Of a stretch of DNA of 40,311 bases, positions 10,563 to 17,625 are shown piece after piece. Source of the DNA: Bacteroidota bacterium (GTDB taxonomy: Bacteria > Bacteroidota > Bacteroidia > Chitinophagales > Chitinophagaceae); contig JAKQJH010000014.1 of assembly GCA_029561255.1 (NCBI GenBank), positions 1 through 40,311 of the forward strand, written 5' to 3'. How positions within the stretch are numbered: position 1 is the first letter of the stretch; every line of letters begins with the position of its first letter. A program made the position numbers and the translations under genes. The notes beneath the pieces were generated by a model, which was not told the origin of the DNA, did not search any database, and saw nothing but the letters and a program-made list of their open reading frames with translations.

Positions 10563-12308
10563 ATGAATGGTTCATTTTCTGTCGCAGGCGTACTGGTGGA
10601 TGTACATCAGCAGACGCAATATCCTGCCGAACTGGTTGTATCAGCAGGCAAAATTCAGGCCATAAGGCCTTTTACCCCACAATCTGGTCAGTCCCTGCCT
10701 TTTATCCTGCCCGGGTTTATCGACAGTCATGTCCATATAGAAAGCTCCATGTTGGTACCTGCAGAGTTTGCCCGACTGGCTGTGGTGCACGGTACGGTGG
10801 CCACGGTAAGCGACCCGCATGAGATCGCCAATGTCTGCGGCCTTGACGGTGTGGAGTTTATGATCGAAAACGGAAAGACCGTTCCTTTCAAATTCAACTT
10901 CGGGGCCCCCAGTTGTGTGCCGGCCACCATTTTTGAAACCGCCGGGGCCGCCCTGGATGCAGCGCAGGTAGAGGAACTGTTGAAAAGACCTGAGATCAGA
11001 TACCTCAGCGAGATGATGAATTTTCCGGGTGTGCTTCACGGTGACCCTGAAGTAATAAAGAAAATCACCGCCGCCCTTCGGCTAGGCAAGCCCGTTGATG
11101 GTCATGCACCGGGGTTGAGAGGGGAAGTGGCGGGGAAGTATATAAGACCGGAGTGGCTGGCCCCCCAACCCCCCAAAGGGGGGCTTTCAGAGTCGTCAAA
11201 GTCTGAAAAAATTTTTCATGTTTCGGAGGACCAAAGCCCCCCTTCGGGGGGTTGGGGGGCCATCTCCACCGATCATGAGTGCTTCACCGCTGCCGAAGCC
11301 CTCGACAAACTCCGCTACGGCATGAAGATCATTATCCGGGAAGGATCGGCGGCGAAAAATTTTGATGCATTGATTGATTTACTACACGACTGGCCGGAAC
11401 AGATGATGTTCTGCAGCGATGACAAACACCCGGATAGCCTGGTACTCGGACATATTAACCAGTTATGTGCCCGGGCTGTAGCACGTGGTGTGGATTTGTA
11501 TAAAGTATTAAAGGCTGCTTGTGTGAATCCGGTGGAGCACTACAAGTTAGATGTGGGGTTATTGCGGCTAGGGGATTTTGCGGATTTTATCCTGGTAAAA
11601 GATCTGAAGGACTTCGAAGTACTGACTACTTATATTAATGGTGAAGTGGTAGCTGAAAATCAAAAGTCAAAAGTAAAAAGTAAACAGGGGGGAGTACTAA
11701 ACAGGTTCAGTTGCAGTCCTAAGACCGAAGAAGAATTTAAAGTGAGCTATGTCGGTGGAAAAACTATTCCCGTTATTGAGGCCCTGGATGGACAACTGAT
11801 CACCAACAGACTGGACCTCGTACCTAAACTGGCAAATGGAGAAATAATAAGTGATGCTGAAAATGATGTATTGAAGATCGTGGTGGTGAACCGGTACCAG
11901 GAAGCACCGGTGGCTAAAGCCTTTATCAAAGGATTCGGATTGAAACAGGGTGCCCTTGCCTCTTCCGTTGCACATGACAGTCATAATATCGTGGCCGTGG
12001 GAGTGGATGATGAAAGTCTTTGCCGGGCCGTGAACCTCGTGATTGCCGAACAGGGTGGTCTCAGTGCCGTAGGCCATGGCCAGGAACTGGTACTCGGTCT
12101 GCCCGTAGCCGGACTCATGAGCAATGGCGATGGTTACAAAATAGCTGATGCGTATACAAAGCTGGACCAATTCACCAAAAAAGAACTAGGATCTACCCTC
12201 GCCTCACCCTTTATGACCCTTTCCTTTATGGCTTTGCTCGTGATCCCGCATTTAAAGCTGAGTGATAAGGGGTTGTTTGACGGGGATGGGTTCAGGTTTG
12301 TGGAATAA
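10563..12308 (+). CDS. ade: Adenine deaminase with an in-frame repeat insertion
   Basis: A 581-residue amidohydrolase that deaminates adenine to hypoxanthine in purine salvage; cytosolic. Diagnostic motifs are [14 protein letters not shown] (50-63), [13 protein letters not shown] (81-93), VDGHAPGL (178-185), ISTDHEC (234-240), CSDDKHPDS and [14 protein letters not shown], which together form the metal-binding and catalytic set of the family. Between GKYI and ISTDHE, where relatives have only about three residues, there are 39 residues ([13 protein letters not shown]...SPPSGGWGA) encoded by a palindromic repeat element at 11159-11261. The frame is intact on both sides and the catalytic motifs are unchanged, so the product may be active. 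A second low-complexity tract (KSKVKSK, near 11660-11686) lies in the linker before the C-terminal domain. Confidence 0.93.
11159..11261 (+). repeat. Palindromic element inserted in frame in ade
   Basis: A 103-nt element with 29-nt inverted arms, 11159-11187 and 11233-11261, that differ at a single position. Each arm has its own CCCCCC/GGGGGG hairpin. It encodes about 34 residues with no stop codon. The arm matches the family at 6251-6468, and the interior shares TTTCGGAG with that locus. Confidence 0.88.
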
Positions 12309-12345
12309 TTGATCGTCATTCGTTTAGTTGCATAAGAAAAAATCA

Positions 12346-14250
12346 ATGAACAGACCAATTTTCATTTTATTGATACTCCTCTTAATCCTCAGACATGACA
12401 GCCTGGGAAACTACTTTACAATTACAACTGACAAGTCCTCCTACAAACATACAGACTCACTCAGATATTCGGTTTTCACACAGCTAACTGCCTGCCATTT
12501 TGCGGAGCCAACTGCTTATGTTTATATTCATACTGCAGATCAGACCATAGTCAGCAGGCAGATTTTACAACTTAACCAGGAACACACTTCTATAGTATTT
12601 CCTTTAACTGGCTTAGACAGCGGCCTTTATTTCATCAGTGTTTTTGGTTATGCACCTGGCAATAACTCCAAACTGAACGGGAATACGGTCTGTATAGCCG
12701 TTGACCTGCCCGATGCCATTTCGCAGCAACTTGCTGACCGGATTATCGAGATTATTCCGGAATGCGGCAAAGCTTTAATAAATTTTACTAACCGGATGAT
12801 TGTTACGCTCAAATCATTGGGCGGGAATCCGGTCAGTGATAAAATCTCTTTTAGGAACCGGCATCAGCAATTAATTGCCGTTTGCCAGACAAATAGTTTT
12901 GGCTGGGGCTCGGTGGACCTTCCAATAGTATCAGATGACAGCATTTGGTTAACCGACACAAAAAAGAATCTTCTTTCCGTAATTCAGGTAAACAATAACC
13001 GGATATTCAGCAATAACGGTTTTTCACTTCACATACCAGAATACAGTGATACGATGATCATCCAGGTAAGAAAAGGGGATGCGGCTTCAGGGCATAGAGT
13101 CTACCTGGAAGTATATGACAAAGAACATGCCCTTGCAGAAAAGCCTGTCTTGTTCCTCAATGACACCTCAATTGTCAATATCCTTTTACCTCCGGTAAAT
13201 TTTAGTAACAAATTGCTGAAAGTCCTGCTTAAAAACGAAAAGGCACAAATCATTGCTGAACGCTATGTATTCAGTAAAAACAAGGATCATCAAGAGGCAA
13301 CCGGATTATTTTGTGAAGCCATAACTGCTTCAACTCCTTTCTACCTCGAAACCGAAAGTCCTGCTATAAATGACGGCTTGATCGCTTTTAAACCGGAATA
13401 CCTGGATTCAATAATCAAACTGGCGGAAGAAGGATTCCGGCTTGCATTCAGCAATCCGGATCATGTAAGCACCAAAATTGACTACTATATATATAATAAC
13501 CAGAACGAAATCATACAGGCCGGCAGTTCAATAGCCGACAGCTCCGGGCTCACTCAGATCAGTGGTTGCAATTTCGACGGCCCCGGGTACATTAAATTTT
13601 ATATCAACAAAAATGAAGTCACCGGGTTTAAGGAAGTATTACAAGGACTAACCCCGGCAGAAATGGAAAAGTTATATGATCAATTCAGCCAGATCAACAA
13701 AACATACATACGGCCTACCATTATTCCTGCGGCCGTACAGCCAGCAGCTTCGCCTGATTTTAAAACGTTGGAAAATATTAACCTGAATGTAATTATCAAA
13801 GACCGATTTTTCGAATTGGAGAAAAAGTATATTAACAATGGCATATTCAGGGACCATAACTCAATCCAGGTCAATGTGGAAGACGACCGGCTTGCTTTAA
13901 ACTACTCCCTCACTGATTACCTGGTAAGAAAAATACCCGGACTCTTTATCTATAAGGAGGAACTAAGATACCGGGGAGGTTATGTAGAAGTTTATATTGA
14001 CGAAATGTTTATTCCCGACCCTTTGCTGAATAGTGTAATACAGATAAACGATATTGGCTATATCAAATTTTTCAGAAACCCGATCAGCAGTGGTCTGCAG
14101 TCAACGGGAACTGGAAGTGCCACAAATGGCAACAGTTATGCAGCCGGTATACAAGGCAGCCTGGCAATTTATACTAAGAAAAATAATGACAATGAAAACA
14201 AGCCATTGTTTAAAATAGGTGTTTTGGTGGAAGGATATGTAAAACAGTAA
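12346..14250 (+). CDS. Secreted MG2/plug-domain-like protein of unknown function
   Basis: A 634-residue protein. The ATG at 12346 is preferred over a TTG at 12328 because it begins a signal peptide (MNRPIFILLILLLIL). The N-terminal part has macroglobulin-like (MG2) features, for example TDKSSYKHTDSLRYSV and LTGLDSGLYFISVFGYA. The C-terminal 110 residues resemble a TonB-receptor plug: RGGYVEVYIDEMFIPDP, INDIGYIKFFRNP, then a Gly/Ser-rich loop and IQGSLAIYTKKN. There is no beta-barrel and no N-terminal STN domain. Bacteroidota encode many such MG2-plug proteins, whose role (surface assembly or partner of a TonB system) is not established. It starts 37 nt after ade, but a functional link is not apparent. 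Confidence 0.6.
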   Translation: MNRPIFILLILLLILRHDSLGNYFTITTDKSSYKHTDSLRYSVFTQLTACHFAEPTAYVYIHTADQTIVSRQILQLNQEHTSIVFPLTGLDSGLYFISVFGYAPGNNSKLNGNTVCIAVDLPDAISQQLADRIIEIIPECGKALINFTNRMIVTLKSLGGNPVSDKISFRNRHQQLIAVCQTNSFGWGSVDLPIVSDDSIWLTDTKKNLLSVIQVNNNRIFSNNGFSLHIPEYSDTMIIQVRKGDAASGHRVYLEVYDKEHALAEKPVLFLNDTSIVNILLPPVNFSNKLLKVLLKNEKAQIIAERYVFSKNKDHQEATGLFCEAITASTPFYLETESPAINDGLIAFKPEYLDSIIKLAEEGFRLAFSNPDHVSTKIDYYIYNNQNEIIQAGSSIADSSGLTQISGCNFDGPGYIKFYINKNEVTGFKEVLQGLTPAEMEKLYDQFSQINKTYIRPTIIPAAVQPAASPDFKTLENINLNVIIKDRFFELEKKYINNGIFRDHNSIQVNVEDDRLALNYSLTDYLVRKIPGLFIYKEELRYRGGYVEVYIDEMFIPDPLLNSVIQINDIGYIKFFRNPISSGLQSTGTGSATNGNSYAAGIQGSLAIYTKKNNDNENKPLFKIGVLVEGYVKQ

Positions 14251-14409: not shown

Positions 14410-16023
14410 TTACGTATTCGACAATAACACCGCATCCAGGTCTTCCCCAGGTTGTGCAATAATTTTCTGTTCGACCGCATCCCATTCAATTCTTCTTCCC
14501 AATTTATACGCCAGCCCTCCCATATGCGCCGAAATAGCTTCTTCAAACCCTTCTTTGATGGAACAACTGGGGGTGCCTCCATTCCGGATACAACTCAGCC
14601 ATTCCCTTAAATGAAGAAAGGTGGAATCAACCCGTTTGCCATCCCGGTAGGTCCACAACAATCCTTTATTGGCAAAATATTTTGCCGTGGCTGAGGTAAC
14701 CGCATCGGTTCCGTTTACTGCCGGGTCATACTGATAAATCGGAACGCCCGCTTCAATACGCTGCTCTTTAATCAATTCAGCATATTTTGTTGATCTTGGA
14801 TCAGCATAGACGGTAATCCGGTTTCCCAGATCCATACTGCCATCGTGCCCCATCAGCACGGTACCCCTGTCAAACTGATTCCCTAAAGTGGCACTGTATA
14901 CGAAGGTCATTCCTTTTTCTTTTCCGGCTACCTGGCTTCCGCCCGTACTGAAATCCGGGAACTCCATATTTACATGCATTACATCCGGTACGTTTCGCCC
15001 GTCGCGGTGAGTATAGATACCGCCTGAAGCAGTAACCGTTTTCGGAATTCCCATTTTCAGAATACAGTTAATCCGGTCATAATCGTGTGTCATTAAATCC
15101 CCTGACAATCCAGAACCATAAGCCCACCATTTACGCCAACGGAAAAAATGCTCGAGATTAAAAGGTTCACGGGGTGCATTCCCAAGGAACAAATCCCAGT
15201 CAATGGTTTTGGGACTGGCCGACTCAGCTATATCATATTGCCAGGCACCATTATCATCATTCCGGTTTGTATTAGTTTGAACCAGGGACACATGGCCGAG
15301 AATATTCTTGCTGATCACATCCTGGGCTGTCAGGAAACTCTGTGTTTGCCGGTGCTGGTGCCCTACGGCAAAAACGGTTTTGGGGTTTTTCAAAACCGTA
15401 TCCCGTAAAAGGTAGGTCTCGGCGATATTATGGGTCATTGGCTTTTCAACATATACATGTATCCCCGCATTCAGCGCCTCGATTGAAATCGGCGCGTGCC
15501 AATGGTCCGGGGTGGCGATAATAACCGCATCCACTTCCCCGCTATTGATCAGTTCAGTATGCGTACGAAAGCGTTTGATCTTATTATCCCCGCTGTTAAA
15601 TGATTTCAACGCGTTTTCGGCACGCTGGTCAAATACATCACAGATAGCAGCCAGTTTTACATTCAGGTTTTCCTGTGCTTTGAAATCGGTAAGCCTTGTA
15701 TCTTTTGGATTTTTCGCGAGGTTGTCACTCATATCTTTCAGCCATCCTGTCGAAGCAAAACCTAATGCACGGCAAAGCTGTTCGCCCCGAATACCAAACC
15801 CTATGATGCCAATCCGGAGTGGCTTGCCACTCATAGGACCTGAAGCGGGGGGAGGCGATGCTTTTATATTCAACGTTTCCAGCAGAAACTGCTTTTCCCG
15901 TATTGCAGAACCAGCCAGGCTGGCCCCAGAATACCAAACAGCACCTACGAATGGAATGCCGCCAAGGGCTTTTAAAATATCCCTCCGGTTCCATCTTTTA
16001 AAATTATTAGTATCGTTTGCCAT
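14410..16023 (-). CDS. Tat-exported Gfo/Idh/MocA oxidoreductase with ApbE-type flavinylation motif
   Basis: A 537-residue protein. The N-terminus has a Tat-like signal (WNRRDILKAL followed by GGIPFVGAVWYSGASLAG). The NAD(P) fold shows IGIIGFGIRG (71-80), ATPDHWHAPIS (170-180) and EKPMTH (193-198), all typical of the family, which oxidises or reduces sugars and polyols. Residues 440-446 read DAVTSAT. This matches the Asp-x-x-Ser/Thr-Gly/Ser-Ala-Thr sequence in which ApbE attaches FMN to the last threonine (T446, codon at 14686-14688). It sits in a loop ahead of KGLLWTYRDGKR. Cotranscribed upstream genes are doxX (5-nt gap) and apbE, so I infer a covalent-flavin, membrane-linked exported dehydrogenase. 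No FMN_bind domain is present; without the flavin it would be an ordinary exported sugar oxidoreductase. Confidence 0.85.
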   Translation of the reverse strand: MANDTNNFKRWNRRDILKALGGIPFVGAVWYSGASLAGSAIREKQFLLETLNIKASPPPASGPMSGKPLRIGIIGFGIRGEQLCRALGFASTGWLKDMSDNLAKNPKDTRLTDFKAQENLNVKLAAICDVFDQRAENALKSFNSGDNKIKRFRTHTELINSGEVDAVIIATPDHWHAPISIEALNAGIHVYVEKPMTHNIAETYLLRDTVLKNPKTVFAVGHQHRQTQSFLTAQDVISKNILGHVSLVQTNTNRNDDNGAWQYDIAESASPKTIDWDLFLGNAPREPFNLEHFFRWRKWWAYGSGLSGDLMTHDYDRINCILKMGIPKTVTASGGIYTHRDGRNVPDVMHVNMEFPDFSTGGSQVAGKEKGMTFVYSATLGNQFDRGTVLMGHDGSMDLGNRITVYADPRSTKYAELIKEQRIEAGVPIYQYDPAVNGTDAVTSATAKYFANKGLLWTYRDGKRVDSTFLHLREWLSCIRNGGTPSCSIKEGFEEAISAHMGGLAYKLGRRIEWDAVEQKIIAQPGEDLDAVLLSNT

Positions 16024-16028
16024 GTTGA

Positions 16029-16514
16029 TTAGTTTATTGTGGTGTTTGCCTTTTTACGTGCAAATAAATTTTCGAGGCCAAAAATGGTAGTGAGGGGGAA
16101 CAGGTAGATGACAAAAAGTGCTGCCATCTCAATCAGGTTTTTGTTCACTACCCAATAACTTCCTTCCGCAGGGCCTTGCGGCAATCCGGGAAAAGGAGGA
16201 TGTGCCAGGTAATACATCAGTAACAACAACATTCCCGCAATACAACCCCAGCGCACTTTTATCCCTATGAGCAGGCTGATACCCACAGCTACCAGGCCGA
16301 TAATATTCAGGTAGTCAATAGCCGAAATCATGGAATCACCGGCGAGCCAGGCAAAAAAGGGTTTTAAAATGGAGGCACTTAGTAAATAGCCCTTCGAAGT
16401 CCAGGATGGATTATAGGCCTTTATTATCCCTTCATACAGGAAATGCCAGCCAATTAAAATCCGGAGCAGTACCAGAGCGTAACCCTGTACAGCTGTTAAT
16501 TTCGGTGTGTTCAT
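16029..16514 (-). CDS. DoxX-family membrane protein
   Basis: A 161-residue protein with four predicted membrane helices (about 11-27, 62-82, 88-106 and 128-146). The start LLRILIGWHFLYEGIIKAYNPSW is typical of DoxX/DoxD proteins, a family named for the small subunit of thiosulfate:quinone oxidoreductase and often linked to quinone-dependent redox steps. A loop between helices 3 and 4 (AHPPFPGLPQGPAEGSYWVVNKN) faces out of the membrane. It lies 5 nt upstream of the Gfo/Idh/MocA gene and 100 nt downstream of apbE, all in one direction. The likely role is membrane anchor or electron acceptor for the exported oxidoreductase (inference). Confidence 0.8.
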   Translation of the reverse strand: MNTPKLTAVQGYALVLLRILIGWHFLYEGIIKAYNPSWTSKGYLLSASILKPFFAWLAGDSMISAIDYLNIIGLVAVGISLLIGIKVRWGCIAGMLLLLMYYLAHPPFPGLPQGPAEGSYWVVNKNLIEMAALFVIYLFPLTTIFGLENLFARKKANTTIN

Positions 16515-16614
16515 ACTGATTGAGTTTTATATTAATATTCCAACCTGATCGGATTGCCATTTTTCTCTTTTCCTTTAAATTCGCTGAACTGCTCAGCCTC
16601 CCCCTCATTATATG

Positions 16615-17625
16615 TTAATGCGATATGTCCACATTCGCTTCAAACTCCTTTGACATGTACGTTTTCGAAATGCCCTTTTCATCATAAATAAATAATACTT
16701 CGAGGCCCAGGTTTTTATTCTCGGCTAAAAACTGCCTGGCTTTATCCAAGCCCATCACCATAAAGGCCGTGGCATAAGCATCCGCGGTCATGCAGTCGCT
16801 GGCAATAACGGTTGCGCTGAGCAAATTATTCATGGCCGGGTATCCGGTAAACGGATTAATAATATGGGCATATTTCTTTCCGTTTTCGATATAAAATTTT
16901 TTATAGTTTCCGGAAGTGGCCAATGACTTATCTTTTATCCTGACCCGCAAATTATTTAATGATGCCCCGTCTGCATTGTTTTCTTCGGGCTGCTCTATTC
17001 CAACGATCCAGTCACTGTCGTCCCCCTTCTTCCCTTTAGCCCTTAATTCCCCTCCCACTTCCACCAGGTAGTGGCGTATTCCTTTACTTTCCAGAAAGGA
17101 AGACAATACATCCACCGTATATCCCTGGGCGATGGCATTAAAATCAAGCATGACCTGGGGCAGCTCTTTCACCAGTTTTCTATCGGCTAACCGTACCTTT
17201 TTATACCCGATATACCGGAGCAGGCTATCAATTAATGGTTGCGTTATTTTTTCTTTTTTGGTAAACCCGAAACCATAGGCATTAATAACAGGTGCCACAG
17301 TTACATCAAACAGGCCTTTTGTTTTTTCCGAAACCTCCATGGATTTAGCAAATACATCTGAAAAGTATTCATCCGCCAGAACAGCGGTATCATTTCTGTT
17401 CATCTTCGAAATAACCGAACCGGGTTGATAAGTGGAAAGAGACAAATCGATCTTTTTAAAAATAGAATCAATTGCTTCCCTGTAATTGGATTGCTGGCCC
17501 GCCAGGTAGGTTATATGATAAGTGGTCCCCTGGGCGGCTCCGGAAATCTGAATGGTATTCAACAGCTCGCTTTTGCAGCCTGCAAGGAGAAAAATGGCAA
17601 CCGTTGAAAAGATTATACGTTTCAT
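16615..17625 (-). CDS. apbE: FAD:protein FMN transferase, lipoprotein
   Basis: A 336-residue protein when started at the ATG at 17625, which gives a lipoprotein signal (MKRIIFSTVAIFLLAGC, acylated Cys17). The frame is open further upstream, but that extension would bury the signal. Family motifs are complete: AQGTTYHITY (31-40), STYQPGSVISKMNR (64-77), FDVTVAPVINAYGFG (106-120), DFNAIAQGYTVD (161-172), VEVGGELR, SLATSGNYKKFY, HIINPFTGYP (254-263) and the Mg-binding MTADAYATAFMVMG (279-292, with D282 and T286). It transfers FMN from FAD to Ser/Thr of extracytoplasmic proteins. No Nqr, Rnf or FMN_bind gene is in the window; the only visible candidate target is the DAVTSAT sequence of the protein encoded two genes downstream. 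Confidence 0.92.
   Translation of the reverse strand: MKRIIFSTVAIFLLAGCKSELLNTIQISGAAQGTTYHITYLAGQQSNYREAIDSIFKKIDLSLSTYQPGSVISKMNRNDTAVLADEYFSDVFAKSMEVSEKTKGLFDVTVAPVINAYGFGFTKKEKITQPLIDSLLRYIGYKKVRLADRKLVKELPQVMLDFNAIAQGYTVDVLSSFLESKGIRHYLVEVGGELRAKGKKGDDSDWIVGIEQPEENNADGASLNNLRVRIKDKSLATSGNYKKFYIENGKKYAHIINPFTGYPAMNNLLSATVIASDCMTADAYATAFMVMGLDKARQFLAENKNLGLEVLFIYDEKGISKTYMSKEFEANVDISH

Follow-up and report, generated by a model that had tools for sequence, protein, structure and literature searches.

Positions 1 to 40,311 of the Chitinophagaceae contig JAKQJH010000014.1 (assembly GCA_029561255.1, phylum Bacteroidota), referred to below as the window, carry three genes together on the minus strand. 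They are, in the order of transcription, apbE, a gene for a DoxX-like membrane protein (doxX) and a gene for an oxidoreductase of the Gfo/Idh/MocA family (gfo), with gaps of 100 bases and then 5 bases. The oxidoreductase contains the sequence DAVTSAT, a predicted site at which ApbE attaches flavin mononucleotide (FMN). The protein is probably an exported dehydrogenase of glycosides or polyols that holds nicotinamide adenine dinucleotide (NAD), serves as a substrate of ApbE, and uses the covalent FMN as a relay to DoxX and further to quinone. The features concerned are the following.

16615..17625, minus strand: gene for the ApbE flavin adenine dinucleotide:protein FMN transferase (Pfam ApbE, E 9e-84)
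16029..16514, minus strand: gene for the DoxX-like membrane protein, 161 amino acids (weak Pfam DoxX match, below the cut-off)
14410..16023, minus strand: gene for the Gfo/Idh/MocA oxidoreductase, 537 amino acids (Pfam GFO_IDH_MocA, E 2e-16; fold match to 8tdf/8tdh)
15085..15099, minus strand: DLMTH, residues 309-313, the Asp-x-x-x-His pair (from alignment; the pair matches that of 8tdf)
14611..14796, minus strand: segment of the C-terminal domain around the motif, residues ~410-471 (from alignment with paralogues, which is loose here)
14686..14706, minus strand: DAVTSAT, residues 440-446, predicted ApbE flavinylation site with FMN on T446 (from translation and alignment)

The apbE gene opens with ATG, MKRIIFSTVAIFLLAGC, and its product covers the Pfam ApbE family almost end to end, with a signal that appears by eye to be of the lipoprotein type. 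Bases 14706-14686 of the minus strand translate into DAVTSAT at residues 440-446, where the original prediction had placed it. That prediction had also described an intact NAD-type fold and a signal for twin-arginine (Tat) export, and both are present. The N-terminus NRRDILKALGG is of the Tat type (by eye, with NRRD from residue 12), the glycine motif GFGIRG starts at residue 75, and EKP, which includes K194, occupies residues 193-195, ahead of DLMTH. The N-terminal NAD-binding Rossmann family PF01408 is matched with 60.9 bits against a cut-off of 24, and is matched by 42/42 members of the subfamily set A1; PF19051, PF22725 and PF02894, which describe the C-terminal alpha/beta domain, all exceed their cut-offs. 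FMN_bind (PF04205) is not among the Pfam matches of the oxidoreductase up to E 1. The AlphaFold model (predicted local distance difference test, pLDDT, 79.7; predicted template modelling score 0.82) has its best Foldseek matches in 8tdf and 8tdh, the glucoside-3-dehydrogenase AL3 (E 2.7e-21 for 8tdf), and the Asp and His of DLMTH align to the pair of AL3. K194 and H313 are invariant across 91 aligned subfamily rows, and the glycine motif, the EKP lysine and the Asp-x-x-x-His pair are all invariant or nearly so. We take the catalytic roles of K194, D309 and H313 to be those of inositol dehydrogenase. The putative substrate class is read from the nearest structures, which include glucoside and glucuronide 3-dehydrogenases, at ~20% identity or less; the oxidoreductase reaches 138.4 of the 750 bits demanded by NF058561 (BT_2158 glycoside 3-dehydrogenase).

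A single motif in this protein, taken alone, is a mild surprise. The composition-based expectation of D-x-x-[ST]-[GS]-A-[ST] in the oxidoreductase is 0.0066, and the 591 neighbouring open reading frames (ORFs) of the fetched loci hold 7 matches in 174,408 amino acids, which corresponds to 0.022 per 537 amino acids. The conservation of the motif was followed in homologues from a genome-contig scan (74 loci), a sample of 395 genomes of the phylum (9 with strong matches, including the window's genome) and a profile search over a more distant order (164 genomes, 9 of them with matches); loci and genomes are numbered below with L and G. Its persistence in homologues with the same neighbours had been set as a test beforehand, and of the 91 subfamily rows, at 37-100% identity, 87 carry the consensus at this position of the alignment. 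This count leaves out the paralogues L003-L030 and four sequences that end before the motif (L087, L102, L104, L126), takes in L120, L121 and L125 by name in case of a sub-threshold match, and holds presumed genome copies (L105/L063, L106/L095, L107/L058, L108/L076, L110/L080, L112/L122). Such retention removes a chance origin, which was rejected on the aligned conservation together with the low expected counts. Ten of the 13 distinct distant members (37-46% identity) match, and most variation, in the forms TSAT, SSAT, TGAT, SGAT and TSAS, remains inside the ApbE consensus. Ranked by variability among 451 positions, the five residues preceding the motif stand at 307-445, D440 at 42, A445 at 38 and T446 at 95. 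Four members depart from the consensus: DAVASAT (L109), DAVTTAT (L002), DAITSPT (L101) and QTITSAS (L125).

The segment around the motif exceeds that of the ~30%-identity paralogues by ~15 residues (62 residues against a median of 47 in 26 paralogues). At the 28 paralogue loci L003-L030 (27 of them aligned; L013 and L019 incomplete) the motif was found nowhere in the open frame, and no DoxX gene was found beside any of them in the flanking sequence, which reaches at most about 1.5 kb. A general Gfo/Idh/MocA feature was therefore rejected as an explanation of the motif. The AlphaFold model gives residues 439-442 a pLDDT below 50 and has a helix that starts near residue 445, which suggests that the site around T446 is exposed.

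The occurrence of ApbE was compared with the state of the motif. ApbE was detected in 50/51 and 36/40 of the homologue-bearing genomes and in 260/395 genomes of the phylum sample. The motif is not equally kept where ApbE is missing, which the original prediction had left to be seen: ApbE was found in 77 of the 78 genomes whose motif is intact and in two of the four whose motif departs (p 0.005, with ancestry ignored). This tally of 82 genomes was made by hand, each genome being entered once and with its site visible; it omits duplicate copies, L038 and, as the site is out of view there, G701, G602, G595 and G601. The three genomes without detected ApbE are all small or incomplete (G589, 1.8 Mb; G569, 2.4 Mb; G681, 84% complete).

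The placement of apbE was compared with the presence of FMN_bind. FMN_bind was detected in 47/51 and 28/32 homologue-bearing genomes (counts that exclude G654, G671, G673, G681, G691, G701, G704 and G711). Eight genomes have no detected FMN_bind, and in six of these, namely G000 (the window's genome), G530, G566, G571, G593 and G595, apbE adjoins doxX-gfo. Of the other two, G074 has a departed motif, and its ApbEs lie on different contigs, next to genes of the DUF3570 and DUF2271 families; in G602 the gfo contig is incomplete and no ApbE was found. None of the 58 informative loci from FMN_bind-bearing genomes has apbE linked to doxX-gfo. The linkage test gave p 8e-6 for 62 informative loci and L002, with ancestry ignored, before G571 and G593 were identified, some of the 62 having been counted only because apbE was visible. 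A tree of 37 ApbEs places those linked to gfo among the ApbEs linked to NQR (a label assigned by us from the nearness of ApbE and FMN_bind matches) at two separate places, one with five related loci that have apbE upstream and one with L094, where it lies downstream. Linkage and tree together form the pattern expected if the dehydrogenase draws on the ApbE of NQR in trans and, in genomes that lack NQR, has retained a copy in cis. This placement is the strongest argument for the ApbE-substrate reading.

In the window's genome, whose assembly is 76% complete, the ApbE of the window is the sole ApbE found, and searches for PF04205 (FMN_bind), PF03116 (NqrB/RnfD), PF10029 (DUF2271) and PF12094 (DUF3570) detected none of them. 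The apbE-doxX operon described by the original prediction exists here as three adjoining genes; as a general rule the linkage of apbE was rejected, being present in 6 genomes only, and the conserved unit is doxX-gfo.

DoxX is the constant partner. The PF07681 match (20.5 bits, E 7.5e-4) is under the curated cut-off of 23.6 bits, and the protein is therefore named DoxX-like. Its gene adjoins gfo in 82 of the 83 examined loci whose visible upstream sequence is 600 bases or longer (none at L126), downstream of gfo at L002 only and upstream in all others; by coordinates, six other automatic 'downstream' scores are artefacts of long open frames. Clustering of the neighbours gave gfo at 75 loci, doxX at 68 and the next cluster at 12; further conserved operon members that could name the substrate were sought and rejected, none being near the frequency of doxX or gfo. 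The protein is modelled as helical (pLDDT 87.5), and R18, H24, E28, K32, W38 and E129 are invariant in 90 rows, the R, H, E and K lying in the first helix. Its fold matches are all weak, with none at E < 0.001, and TMEM35A leads by probability (0.96, E 0.6). A resemblance to vitamin-K-dependent carboxylase fits a quinone partner in the fold comparison and proves nothing.

Two side observations concern this pair. Two genomes, G671 (L158) and G704 (L157), each contain a pair of copies with the motif (L120/L127 and L119/L128), all adjoined by a DoxX gene; doxX-gfo seems to be duplicated, or to spread, as one block. A record labelled Rickettsiales (L056) has the pair with a gfo 72% identical to that of the window, the titles of the other records being of the Bacteroidota type; it is possibly a mislabelled or mixed assembly.

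Several observations weigh against the proposed flavinylation and electron route. The first group concerns ApbE and the motif. ApbE is common in these clades regardless of the oxidoreductase. L109 and L002 depart from the consensus though their genomes have ApbE, and L074 retains it with no ApbE detected in its 1.8 Mb assembly. L101 and L125 lie in genomes without detected ApbE; G569 still holds NqrB- and FMN_bind-type genes, and its ApbE may therefore just be missing from the assembly, so the case for a joint loss of motif and ApbE is weakened. With regard to the Asp that QTITSAS lacks, its replacement in one test protein had minor effects only, according to PMC12052999, and another paper calls the motif Asp essential. 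The mean entropy of the seven-residue motif ranks only 93 among 445 such stretches in 75 close members, because the entire protein is well conserved. Other flavinylation targets may be missing from the incomplete assembly of the window's genome. On the side of DoxX, the match to vitamin-K-dependent carboxylase is poor (probability 0.5, E 3), and that to TMEM35A is better.

The second group concerns position 5 of the motif. The consensus D-x-x-[S/T]-[G/S]-A-[S/T] on which the original prediction relied is matched; its Ser at position 5, which predominates in the subfamily, is unusual against the published D-x-x-[S/T]-G-A-[S/T], and a change of this Gly to Ala leaves about half of the flavinylation (both from PMC12052999). 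In related genomes Gly occupies position 5 in 12 of 12 FMN_bind sites found (DAITGAT is an example) and in three of four NqrB-type sites. The relaxed pattern was matched by 12/20 FMN_bind, 4/6 NqrB-type and 3/5 DUF2271/DUF3570 stretches, and the remainder matched none. In favour of the reading, known target families of related genomes hold sites of a similar kind: one of the NqrB/RnfD type is DATTSAT, and Ser also stands in DSYTSAS and DHYTSAS, two of the three sites found of the DUF3570 type. A DUF3570 protein of another organism is flavinylated, with the motif written as [S/T]GA[S/T] in PMC8238504. Ser at position 5 is thus attested yet uncommon, since it occurs in NqrB-type and DUF3570-type sites of related genomes, and it may be flavinylated less efficiently.

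Taken together, the comparison of sequences supports the interpretation of the original prediction to the extent that sequences can, with the flow of electrons to DoxX and quinone staying an inference. Covalent FMN on T446 is very probable. In the proposed mechanism the Gfo/Idh/MocA protein would fold with NAD(H) in the cytoplasm and then be exported by Tat, after which the lipoprotein ApbE would put FMN on T446. The hydroxyl of a glycoside or polyol would be oxidised in the periplasm by way of K194, D309 and H313, leaving NADH in the site. The hydride would pass from NADH to the tethered FMN, and the electrons from FMN to DoxX and the menaquinone pool. The chances of this route from NADH through FMN and DoxX to quinone are about even. 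The same balance holds for the wider picture of a two-gene respiratory entry, in which bound nicotinamide and tethered FMN would share one chain docked on DoxX as a minimal quinone reductase, feeding periplasmic sugars into the quinone pool with a cis ApbE where NQR is absent.

The alternative that survives best, though we consider it rather unlikely, accepts the flavinylation and changes the destination. The FMN may feed another periplasmic acceptor, or electrons from quinol may reduce a keto-sugar, and DoxX may serve in assembly, docking or transport. The direction of the electrons and the partner are read from the gene neighbourhood alone, and TMEM35A/NACHO, the top fold match of DoxX by probability, is called an assembly factor in its entry; on the other side stand the invariant first-helix residues of DoxX, its near-constant place beside gfo and the weak resemblance to vitamin-K-dependent carboxylase, which points to quinone. 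It is improbable that DAVTSAT is a helix-capping loop of the subfamily which fits the consensus by accident, while ApbE serves a target missing from the assembly. The whole-length conservation of the protein, the incomplete assembly and the helix start at about residue 445 would agree with such a loop. Opposed to it are the variable residues just ahead of a retained consensus, the 100 bases that separate apbE from doxX-gfo on the same strand, and the linked ApbEs at two separate places of the tree, always in genomes without detected FMN_bind. The weakest alternative, a tethered FMN that has displaced NAD as the working cofactor and left the Rossmann site vestigial, is very improbable: a covalent flavin close to the hydroxyl-oxidising site could, we infer, accept the hydride directly, but the subfamily keeps the glycine motif, the lysine of EKP and the Asp-x-x-x-His pair with little or no change.

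Other observations were made around these loci. A second candidate ApbE substrate is a catalase-peroxidase-like protein of the peroxidase family (~760 amino acids) encoded downstream of doxX-gfo, at L058:6913-9192, L060:6899-9181, L043:7308-9599 and L051:6965-9238, all on the plus strand; the L058 protein matches the Pfam peroxidase family with E 1e-70. Its N-terminal extension, after an apparent signal peptide, carries DAYTGAT, DAYSGAT, DGYSGAT or DGMSGAT between varying flanks, and in the L037 copy, 69% identical, the motif was not found in the first 75 residues. No paper on catalase-peroxidase and flavinylation was found in open-licence full text. In the window, the neighbour of the operon on the opposite strand is an ORF at 12328-14250 (plus strand, 640 amino acids) with no Pfam match up to E 0.001. 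An imperfect palindrome at 11130-11290 (plus strand; 58-nucleotide arms, 79% complementary, 45 nucleotides apart) sits within the ORF 10563-12308, which looks adenine-deaminase-like by eye and reads APQPPKGG...SPPSGGWGA there; the element looks like one that is tolerated in frame inside a coding gene.

The original prediction knew of no covalent-flavin member of the Gfo/Idh/MocA family, and none is described among the matches listed from the open-licence literature, where no listed title or abstract connects either ApbE or flavinylation to Gfo/Idh/MocA or to DoxX. In open-licence full text, no paper was found that combines DoxX and apbE, and MocA with covalently bound FMN led to an unrelated review only. 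In the main text of PMC8238504 the words 'gfo', 'idh' and 'sugar' each have 0 occurrences. According to that paper, the main survey of flavinylation, the share of orphan-apbE genomes, which have an ApbE and lack any known substrate, fell only to 4% (670), the rarer substrates being unidentified. The window's genome looks like such an orphan-apbE case, with the reservation of its 76% completeness, and the oxidoreductase is a concrete candidate substrate. If the reading is true, a nicotinamide-dehydrogenase fold joins the ApbE substrates as what would be a new class, and DoxX-like proteins gain a role, open to testing, in the passage of electrons to quinone. It would be the first ApbE substrate on such a fold known to us.

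The likeness to known systems lies on both sides, flavinylation and dehydrogenation. FMN_bind, NqrC and NqrB/RnfD have the same kind of motif and depend on ApbE, and their linked ApbEs are the nearest to those adjoining gfo; unlike them, the window's oxidoreductase is without an FMN_bind domain. The ApbE substrates Flavodoxin_4 and FMN_red are likewise redox folds that acquired the motif within an inserted or added stretch, with apbE nearby and flavinylation demonstrated by co-expression (PMC11334425); these folds bound flavin non-covalently beforehand, whereas the fold in the window binds nicotinamide. DUF2271 and DUF3570 were found via the apbE genes of FMN_bind-less genomes (PMC8238504), and they belong to other domain families, with no dehydrogenase annotation. 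Among the dehydrogenases, which include the BT_2158 family, AL3 (PDB 8tdf/8tdh) is the best match in the PDB by sequence and by fold and has the EKP and Asp-x-x-x-His in common; it differs in its ~20% identity over the structural alignment and in that the significant sequence alignment ends ahead of the motif segment. We know of no DoxX partner or flavin for AL3 or the BT_2158 family. Glucose-fructose and aldose-aldose oxidoreductases share the Gfo/Idh/MocA fold (match to 1h6d). The glucose-fructose oxidoreductase of Zymomonas is exported with its nicotinamide tightly bound, and these enzymes re-oxidise the nicotinamide using a second sugar. For the oxidoreductase of the window a covalent FMN and a membrane partner are proposed instead, which, if true, would be one answer to the re-oxidation of NADH trapped in an exported enzyme.

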